Source: a virus. From it: 64,000 bases of DNA. The notes beneath the pieces were generated by a model. The model was not told the origin of the DNA and did no database searches. It saw only the letters and a list, made by a program, of their open reading frames with translations. The position numbers and the translations under genes are program-made. Of the stretch, positions 45,067 through 61,211 are shown piece after piece. Positions within the stretch are counted from its first letter, which is position 1, and the number at the start of each line of letters is the position of its first letter. The stretch covers positions 250,001-314,000 of the IMG/VR virus record IMGVR_UViG_3300031669_000001, one strand, 5' to 3'.

Positions 45067-49299
<4,233 letters not shown>

Positions 49300-56281: not shown

Positions 56282-56551
56282 TTAAATCAGATGGTGTAAT
56301 TGTGCTTTTGCTATCATGTCAGAGATAACTTTTTCACCTTTGAATACTTTCTTTAAAAGCTCGTCAGCTTCGTGATGTTCACGAGTAGCGATCAAATATG
56401 CATGATAGACAGCTAAAGTGTCAAAGCAAGATGGTCTTAGGATCTGTGCGGTCTTAGTATTGACTAATGCTTTTTCTTCTAGGTTAATCTTGATGTGACA
56501 CATTCCAATTATTCTCATATTTGCTGACGAAATGCAATTGTTGAATTTCAT
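56282..56551 (-). CDS. Hypothetical protein (89 aa)
   Basis: A helical, histidine-rich protein started at the ATG at 56551; no clear ribosome site is seen, and internal ATGs at 56518 or 56503 are possible. It follows the tmRNA and may be read through from its promoter. Confidence 0.5.
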   Translation of the reverse strand: MKFNNCISSANMRIIGMCHIKINLEEKALVNTKTAQILRPSCFDTLAVYHAYLIATREHHEADELLKKVFKGEKVISDMIAKAQLHHLI

Positions 56552-56557
56552 TTCGTC

Positions 56558-56581
56558 AGCACGCTGGCGAACCAACGTGCT
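56558..56581 (-). terminator. Hairpin after the tmRNA
   Basis: Arms AGCACGTTGG and CCAGCGTGCT form a 10-bp stem (one G-U) with a TTCG tetraloop on the minus strand. There is no U-tract, so it may be a processing or weak termination signal between the tmRNA and the next gene. Confidence 0.5.
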
Positions 56582-56599
56582 AGTTGTTAGATTTCTTTA

Positions 56600-56935
56600 A
56601 TAAGGTAGAAAGCTTTCACCCTCTATTCTAAACCTCAGGCAACAATTAAGCTGCCAGAGCCAGAGCTCCGTTTGCGTCGTTTGCATTTACATGCTTGTCA
56701 GATTTACGGTCTGTACTCACCGAGTTGTAAAATTAAGGTACGTCCCTACTCAATCGAAACCAGGTACACCCCCATTAGGGGGCACTAGTTACTTTGATCC
56801 GACCTGGGTTCAGGTGTTAATGCGAATCAGGGAGCTCTAGTGCTCGGTGGAGGTGGGGAGAATCGAACTCCCGTCTTGCGCAGCTTTCGCTTTTTCCTTT
56901 CAGCAGTTTCCTGCCATACAACCATCTTTACTACT
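56600..56935 (-). ncRNA. ssrA: Circularly permuted (two-piece) tmRNA
   Basis: The minus strand holds all key parts of tmRNA in permuted order. First comes the 3' acceptor part, with T-arm GGGAG-TTCGATT-CTCCC (56856-56872) and acceptor CACCTCC then ACC (56846-56855). After a spacer comes the 5' part: GGGGGTG (56767-56773), GGTTTCGATT and the message. GGGGGTG pairs with CACCTCC, leaving a G3-U70 pair, the alanine identity element. The resume codon GCA at 56684 begins the tag ANDANGALALAA, ending at TAA (56646-56648). Processing would give two RNAs held by the acceptor stem. A genomic CCG replaces CCA, so CCA would be added. It rescues stalled ribosomes. Outer limits are approximate. Confidence 0.92.
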
Positions 56936-56942
56936 TGAATCC

Positions 56943-56971
56943 ATTATAACAAATTGATACATGAAAGTACA
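56943..56971 (-). promoter_or_regulatory. Promoter for the tmRNA
   Basis: The minus strand has TGTACT (56966-56971) and TATAAT (56943-56948), 17 bases apart, with extended TGTTATAAT. The expected start is near 56935, at the 5' edge of the acceptor part. Confidence 0.75.
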
Positions 56972-58813: not shown

Positions 58814-59144
58814 CTTCTTTTTCTCCGGGAGTTAAAAAGTTGTTCCAGCAAAGTTTCATTTCTTCGTTAAACTCTAACGTTTCGACGTTGAATGGGATTA
58901 TCTCTAGAGTCTCCAAATCAAGTCTATCAAACCTAATACCCATCAACTCAGCAGCGTAAACAGGAATAGGTCCATCAAAGATTCCATTATGTTCAGGAAC
59001 GAAGTCGATTTGGCACTTATCACACCAAAGATGCTTCGCGTATTCTGACCACTGTGTGTTCTCATTACCACACTTACAAGGTGCTATGTCATACTTTCTT
59101 GGTGGCTGAACGTAGCACCAAGTTCGCTTAATCAGCTCTGCCAT
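58794..59144 (-). CDS. Zinc-ribbon-like protein (116 aa)
   Basis: Two Cys pairs, CKCG and CDKC, 21 residues apart (APCKCGNENTQWSEYAKHLW then CDKC), form a zinc ribbon. The second half is acidic (DLETLEIIPFNVETLEFNEE). It overlaps the YqeY gene by 13 bases, so translation is linked. Confidence 0.65.
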   Translation of the reverse strand: MAELIKRTWCYVQPPRKYDIAPCKCGNENTQWSEYAKHLWCDKCQIDFVPEHNGIFDGPIPVYAAELMGIRFDRLDLETLEIIPFNVETLEFNEEMKLCWNNFLTPGEKEDDEDCA

Positions 59145-59581
59145 GTGGCGATGACGTCTTTCGCGATGCGCGCAGCGAGTCCGCCGTCATAACGACCCTC
59201 GTATTTGAACTTTAGAATCTTGAGCATCTCACCCATTGGCTTATTGGCAACGTCGAAGCCATTCACCTTGACGATGTCGATCAGAATTTCACGAATCTTT
59301 TCTTCGGTGAGTTGTGCAGGCAGGAAAGAATTGATCAGCTCTTTTTCAGTCGTAGCATCAACGAAGCGCTCATCACCTTCTGCAAGTAGAGGAAGAATTT
59401 GATCGAGGTTCTTGATGAACTTCTTTATCACGGCAATTGTTTCTGCATCGGTCGTTTCGCGACCTTCGTTCTTACCAACCATAGTTGCTTCAGAAAGAAG
59501 TGTGATCAGAGAAGCTGCCTTCTTGGATTCGCGATTTTTGCGCGCTGTGATAGACGCGGCTTTAATGTCATCGAGAATCAT
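59132..59581 (-). CDS. GatB/YqeY-domain protein
   Basis: A 149-residue YqeY-family protein: MILDDIKAASITARKNRESK (N-terminal helices), then INSFLPAQLTEEKIREILID and KPMGEMLKILKFKYEGRYDG, the conserved YqeY core. YqeY resembles the tRNA-binding tail of GatB, so it probably binds tRNA; its exact role is unclear. It fits the nearby translation set (tmRNA, Pth2, bS21). Confidence 0.85.
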   Translation of the reverse strand: MILDDIKAASITARKNRESKKAASLITLLSEATMVGKNEGRETTDAETIAVIKKFIKNLDQILPLLAEGDERFVDATTEKELINSFLPAQLTEEKIREILIDIVKVNGFDVANKPMGEMLKILKFKYEGRYDGGLAARIAKDVIATWQS

Positions 59582-60818: not shown

Positions 60819-61211
60819 TTACAGCAACTTAAGGTGCCCAGTTATCGCGTTAATCTTATCATTCTCTGCAGGACCAACAGAAATGCATGTATTGGTTGGA
60901 ACTCCACTGAATTCTGTTAACCCACTATCAGTGATCAGCGAGCAGGTTATTCCAGCAGCTTTAGCCTTCTCTAATAGTTCAAGAAGCTCGGCTTCACTGT
61001 TAACACCGCAACAGATCTTCTTGAACACTCCTTTCATGAGCCACTCATCCATCTCAGGCGTAAGTGGGATCATGAGGTAACGTGCTCCTCCATTGGCAAC
61101 AAAAACACTTCCACTATCAACAACGGGTTTCATAGAAGCGTGAGAACCTTGGGCTACCATCTTACCCTTGCGCATGTTGAGGTCGGTCCTCATTACAATG
61201 ACCTGTTTCAT
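60819..61211 (-). CDS. Peptidyl-tRNA hydrolase, archaeal/eukaryotic type (Pth2)
   Basis: A 130-residue Pth2: MKQVIVMRTDLNMRKGKMVA then QGSHASM, the Lys and Gln/His positions of the active site, and later SLITDSGLTEFSGVPTNTCI, the family's conserved C-terminal signature. It would cleave peptidyl-tRNA released from ribosomes, completing rescue alongside tmRNA. Bacteria normally use the unrelated Pth1. Confidence 0.9.
   Translation of the reverse strand: MKQVIVMRTDLNMRKGKMVAQGSHASMKPVVDSGSVFVANGGARYLMIPLTPEMDEWLMKGVFKKICCGVNSEAELLELLEKAKAAGITCSLITDSGLTEFSGVPTNTCISVGPAENDKINAITGHLKLL

Follow-up and report, generated by a model that had tools for sequence, protein, structure and literature searches.

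A divergent permuted two-piece tmRNA gene with a preserved tag in a large phage record

The window, a 64,000-nucleotide stretch of a 345,069-bp IMG/VR virus record (G000), contains a gene that, judged by its sequence, is a permuted tmRNA gene, nearest to the beta form and assigned only to the general permuted family. Very probably its product is a working, phage-encoded two-piece tmRNA that is used in trans-translation during infection. The gene was located by an Rfam covariance model and by ARAGORN on the minus strand (Table 1), a strand that the sequence-only reading of this DNA had not named. The match to RF04321, the merged permuted-tmRNA model of Rfam 15, scored 84.5 bits against a gathering score of 47 (E = 9.8e-15), with the full model (1-213) aligned over window positions 56905-56646, and ARAGORN called a permuted tmRNA (tmRNA*) with the tag ANDANGALALAA. 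These two results confirmed the earlier proposal of a permuted two-piece tmRNA in a phage, together with the tag that had been assigned to it. The acceptor and T-arm half precedes the tag half on one strand, with an intervening spacer (ITS), and the tag frame has an Ala-Leu-Ala-Ala type end followed by a TAA stop codon.

Searches with the family models suggested in the sequence-only reading led to the general permuted family and not to a narrower one. The beta_tmRNA model (RF01850), the best among the clan-competing models reported for this gene, aligned over its whole length, with the 3' hairpin included, and scored 63 bits, below its family cut-off of 84. The alpha_tmRNA model (RF01849) scored 30.4 bits against a cut-off of 50, and the one-piece tmRNA model (RF00023) was also below its cut-off; within the window, gathering scores were reached only by RF04321 and by one tRNA. 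There was no gathering-level match to cyano_tmRNA (RF01851) in the window, any weaker match being masked by the better match to the beta model of the same clan. Every element named previously was found in the sequence (the T-arm, CACCUCC and ACC, followed by GGGGGUG and a tag frame with TAA), as was the proposed G3-U70 alanine identity pair. The place proposed for the gene, 56600-56935, was correct, but its limits were not, as the gene is longer and includes the 3' hairpin.

Table 1. Features of the permuted tmRNA gene and related reading frames (window coordinates unless a contig is named)
Feature	Coordinates	Strand	Basis and remarks
Whole permuted tmRNA gene (pre-tmRNA)	56555-56937	-	ARAGORN, Rfam models
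Putative promoter TGTACT-N17-TATAAT	56943-56971	-	Sequence; TGTACT 56971-56966, TATAAT 56948-56943
P2 helix, acceptor-piece strand GGUUGUA	56917-56923	-	Read by eye; pairs with UACAAC 56729-56724
T-arm, stem GGGAG/CUCCC, loop UUCGAUU	56856-56872	-	Rfam alignment, sequence
Acceptor 3' strand CACCUCC (56855-56849), discriminator A, CC	56846-56855	-	Rfam alignment, sequence; U70 at 56851
ITS, 72 nt, expected to be excised	56774-56845	-	Folding, viral comparison
Acceptor 5' strand GGGGGUG, start of coding piece	56767-56773	-	Rfam alignment, sequence; G3 at 56771, opposite U70
P2 3' strand and PK1	56697-56729	-	Stem 1 CGG/CCG (Rfam alignment); putative stem 2 GUaCAGA/UCUGAC (by eye)
Tag frame ANDANGALALAA, stop TAA	56646-56684	-	Rfam, ARAGORN; resume codon GCA 56684-56682
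3' hairpin GCACGUUGG-UUCG-CCAGCGUGC	56559-56580	-	Aligned to terminal helix of beta_tmRNA; folding
Inverted repeat TGACGAAATG/CATTTCGTCA, directly downstream	56525-56558	-	Sequence
Pth2-type peptidyl-tRNA hydrolase	60819-61211	-	PF01981, 4.5e-31
ITS reading frame, 64 aa	L039:6993-7184		Reading frame
ITS reading frame, 54 aa	L059:2166-2327		Reading frame
ITS reading frame, 50 aa	L036:1969-2118		Reading frame
ITS reading frame	L073:3607-3702		Reading frame
ITS reading frame	L007:2746-2678		Reading frame
ITS reading frame	L029:8657-8592		Reading frame

The ITS, which would be looped out of the precursor, is closed by a stem, GCACUAG (56843-56837) with CUAGUGC (56788-56782), which extends the acceptor stem. 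The fold of the ITS had a z score of -5.8, none of 200 shuffles being equally stable, and the equivalent closing stem in other viral tmRNAs was 92% paired, compared to 66% when partners were swapped between sequences. The productive fold was favored by only 2.5 kcal/mol over a competing precursor hairpin, CCCCC-UAAU-GGGGG. In the gene, ACC is followed by G, so that the terminal A of CCA is missing from the DNA, whereas the first base is A in 67 of the 72 distinct viral spacers compared. The P2 helix sits slightly further 3' in the Rfam model than in our placement by eye, which was based on the sequence and on comparison of permuted tmRNAs.

An own promoter had also been proposed for the gene. 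The -10 element is an exact TATAAT, and the -35 element, TGTACT, is weak; a strict promoter scan made no call at 56943-56971. The TATAAT box is backed by a related phage, described below, in which TTTACT-N16-TATAAT lies just upstream of the tmRNA, and by its presence upstream of 45 of 92 viral tmRNA genes, compared to 13 expected from shuffles, mostly at 53 to 54 nt from the T-loop. Downstream of the gene, both phages have a perfect inverted repeat without a T run (in the related phage, at the matching place in L223); the two repeats differ in sequence, and that of the related phage comprises 17 bp, with a hairpin z score of -8.3.

The strongest indication that the tmRNA is used came from comparison with this relative, a 135,654-bp viral contig (G034) that was one of 40 large viral records encoding a Pth2 relative. 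Matches to G034 were found for 129 of the 662 ORFs of G000, the best 25 of which were 47 to 82% identical. The tag peptides of the two tmRNAs were identical although 6 of the 12 sense codons differed, all of them synonymously; for six random substitutions, an all-synonymous outcome has a P value of about 3e-4 in this test on one phage pair. Beyond the acceptor and the tag, a large part of the RNA had diverged. The T-stem was GCGGG/CCCGC in G034 versus GGGAG/CUCCC in G000, such that two pairs were changed on both sides, and the ITS was about 20 nt long versus 72 nt. In G034 the tmRNA lies just past a tRNA cluster, but in G000 the main tRNA cluster is some 74 kb away, and because of these different positions the agreement in tag is not due to passive synteny. 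For this single phage pair, the preserved tag speaks for real use of the tmRNA and against passenger or decoy roles.

A passenger gene, in the sense of a host ssrA copy that the phage acquired and that selection no longer maintains, could account for the sporadic presence of permuted tmRNAs, which were over the cut-off in 5 of the 40 large viral records, and for the different placement of the gene in the two phages. Such an origin is nevertheless improbable in view of the identical tag with its six silent changes, the compensatory changes in the T-stem and the retention of the upstream TATAAT. Equally, an RNA that merely bound host SmpB or ribosomes and thereby inhibited host trans-translation, as suggested for the DS6A RNA, would have a phage precedent (PMC4131195, PMC11915505) and would agree with the failure to find a phage SmpB. 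Inhibition of this type would not need a conserved tag frame, stop codon or ALAA end, yet the tag is the conserved part, and we consider a decoy very unlikely. The absence of SmpB was observed with a sequence profile in G000, a record that may be incomplete, and in 29 viral contigs of the tmRNA scan and 5 further tmRNA-bearing records. This absence fits with dependence of the phage tmRNA on host SmpB.

The record is that of a T4-like phage, with T4-type topoisomerase II, RNA ligase and tail fiber genes and 52 tRNA genes. The topoisomerase was 38 to 48% identical to its best matches, among which Xanthomonas, Stenotrophomonas and Pseudomonas phages lead. The first and last 127 bases of the record are identical, but circularity is not proved because the same 127-mer occurs again 1,137 bp further in. 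Most of the region is encoded on the minus strand; a 1,410-aa collagen-like protein with GPTGPTG repeats (45067-49299) and the further long ORFs that follow it are on the plus strand. DNA searches with the window for near and distant matches in phage and plasmid collections returned nothing, and no relatives were found for a neighboring protein of unassigned function. The lack of anything similar at the DNA level in the phage collection is what might be expected if a bacterial ssrA gene had been joined to a phage contig by contamination or misassembly. However, T4-like phage genes are present in the window, and the gene is flanked on both sides, within an unbroken phage record, by neighbors of unassigned function. 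In addition, the tag recurs in a second, independent contig of a related phage, in a region rich in tRNAs, which largely refutes such a joining and makes it highly improbable. As a rule, a 3' fragment of the tmRNA gene is all that integrating elements carry. The gene described here is complete and has a promoter-like box of its own, and so it can scarcely be the relic of an attachment site of a temperate phage, even though tmRNA genes commonly serve as integration sites (PMC11915505, PMC12656738).

For a working tmRNA, the following series of events can be proposed. The gene would probably be transcribed from its own promoter, and pairing between the two acceptor-stem strands in the folded precursor would leave the ITS as a loop. 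Cleavage before GGGGGUG by host RNase P and after ACC by host 3' tRNA-processing enzymes would follow, with the CCA end being completed by the host CCA-adding enzyme. Charging by the host alanyl-tRNA synthetase would be expected through the G3-U70 determinant, which is present, and host SmpB and EF-Tu would deliver the molecule to ribosomes stalled on broken mRNA. The ribosome would resume at GCA and append ANDANGALALAA, the LAA end of which, in a peptide whose constraint is apparent from the comparison above, would target the product to ClpXP/ClpAP-type proteases. Of this scheme, the DNA itself shows the permuted arrangement, the G3-U70 pair, and the tag frame with its conservation; cutting, CCA completion, charging, delivery and product degradation would be expected from established tmRNA biology. 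Retagging or rescue of ribosomes during infection, as raised in the sequence-only reading, is plausible in light of the preserved tag. The likely benefit would be to keep ribosomes circulating during destruction of host mRNA, beside a release-factor-domain protein, Pth2 and the 52 tRNAs.

The release-factor-domain protein (136 aa; record positions 212953-213363; L211:12953-13363, minus strand) has only the GGQ domain of class I release factors, is closest to RF1 domain 3 and has no codon-reading domain; it is possibly a codon-independent rescue factor. Of 29 other viral contigs retrieved in the tmRNA scan, 4 likewise encoded RF-1 domains. We infer a functional link between the tmRNA and the nearby Pth2 gene; a YqeY-like gene (59132-59581) is likewise close to the tmRNA. 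Pth2 relatives occur in many large viral contigs, and a conserved Pth2-tmRNA gene pair was rejected: ARAGORN detected a tmRNA at 1 of 75 Pth2 loci (stretches of up to 8 kb on either side), and no tmRNA locus encoded a Pth2 like that of the window. The related phage pf16 is reported to have an SspB adaptor (PMC5587285); a search for one in the phage record gave no match. Both related phages have a tRNA with a CTA (amber) anticodon (L211:2917-2992 and L232:1692-1768, both minus strand). Because TAG terminates 16 of 161 long ORFs (about 10%), this tRNA probably does not recode TAG globally; perhaps it acts as a suppressor for selected genes.

Comparison of the viral tmRNA genes revealed ITSs ranging from 29 to 209 nt. 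The same 102-nt ITS was present in L021, L048, L062, L096 and L121, and the same 61-nt ITS was present in L031, L051, L082 and others. Identical ITSs were found with different tags and bodies, which suggests, from sequence comparison, that phage tmRNA genes recombine or are exchanged as modules. Small ORFs nearly filled the ITS and ended at or near its 3' border in six contigs (Table 1), and for most ITS-ORF contigs a Shine-Dalgarno-like AAGGA was located in the ITS closing stem. A free-standing homologue of the L039 product is encoded immediately upstream of the tmRNA in L058 (L058:5295-5116; 31% identity, E = 2e-5). Phage-type genes or phage protein families were detected in five of six contigs tested (L036, L039, L059, L020 and L029). 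ORF-filled ITSs numbered 16 of 65, compared to a shuffle mean of 8.3 and a maximum of 16, a modest excess that makes the overall test a weak one, and the case depends on the individual examples. The spacer in the window has no ATG and holds no small protein gene. Protein genes nested within the excised spacer are therefore to be regarded as a possible lead and not as a result; no report of such genes was found in the limited literature searched, and the observation may be more novel than the window tmRNA itself. More tentatively, and with a rather low likelihood, phage permuted tmRNAs might constitute an exchangeable module with a phage-tuned tag and an ITS slot for small protein genes, such that one transcript would yield a tmRNA and a small mRNA; the tag part of this scheme is seen in the window, where selection would maintain a 12-residue tag in a jumbo-phage lineage that lacks an SmpB of its own, and the nested-gene part comes from predicted ORFs in other viral contigs.

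The sequence-only reading had described a phage version of a permuted tmRNA as unusual, a description that did not hold. Two-piece tmRNAs were detected by ARAGORN in 53 phages, 50 of them marine or aquatic (PMC9004378), and another report describes huge phages with tmRNA and SmpB (PMC7162821). One exact 23-base pattern retrieved 119 viral stretches from IMG/VR, more than 100 of which had ARAGORN-permuted tmRNAs, and ARAGORN also made a permuted call in two isolate phages. The permuted phage tmRNA is thus a known and common kind, of which the window gene is a new, divergent member. Scans of viral contigs with the tag pattern and with GGGGGTGTACCTGGTTTCGA gave no match; a scan of bacterial genomes with GGGGGTGTACCTGGTTTCGA matched only one-piece tmRNAs of Bacteroidetes, and hence no bacterial donor was identified.

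The gene shares with RF04321 the gene order, the T-arm, the G3-U70 acceptor stem, PK1 and the tag frame. It differs in having an additional nucleotide ahead of UGG relative to the consensus (UACCUGG), a hairpin inserted following the P2 strand, a longer ITS and a tag of 12 residues that lacks the aromatic residue often present in viral tags. The two-piece tmRNAs of marine phages (Melnitz and SAR11 phages) are likewise phage encoded and permuted and are thought to be active in host trans-translation (PMC9004378). However, the Melnitz gene is of the alphaproteobacterial type and contains a glutamine riboswitch, whereas the window gene scored only 30 bits with the alpha model and an Rfam search found no riboswitch in the window. 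Huge phages (PMC7162821) and the Sinorhizobium jumbo phage AP-J-162 (PMC11242549) resemble this phage in being very large and in combining many tRNAs with a tmRNA; they differ in that no SmpB was found here, and the available text on them does not specify whether their tmRNAs are permuted. The tRNA-like-only RNA of mycobacteriophage DS6A is also a phage RNA that engages the trans-translation machinery, but it has no tag frame, whereas the tag of the window RNA is preserved. With the window gene, the phage tmRNAs known so far gain a jumbo-phage lineage, and there is now sequence evidence that selection acts on the peptide encoded by a phage tmRNA tag; this favors real tagging over a decoy or passenger role. 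Furthermore, the combination of a tmRNA with a release-factor-domain protein and Pth2 suggests that some large phages have several routes for freeing ribosomes.
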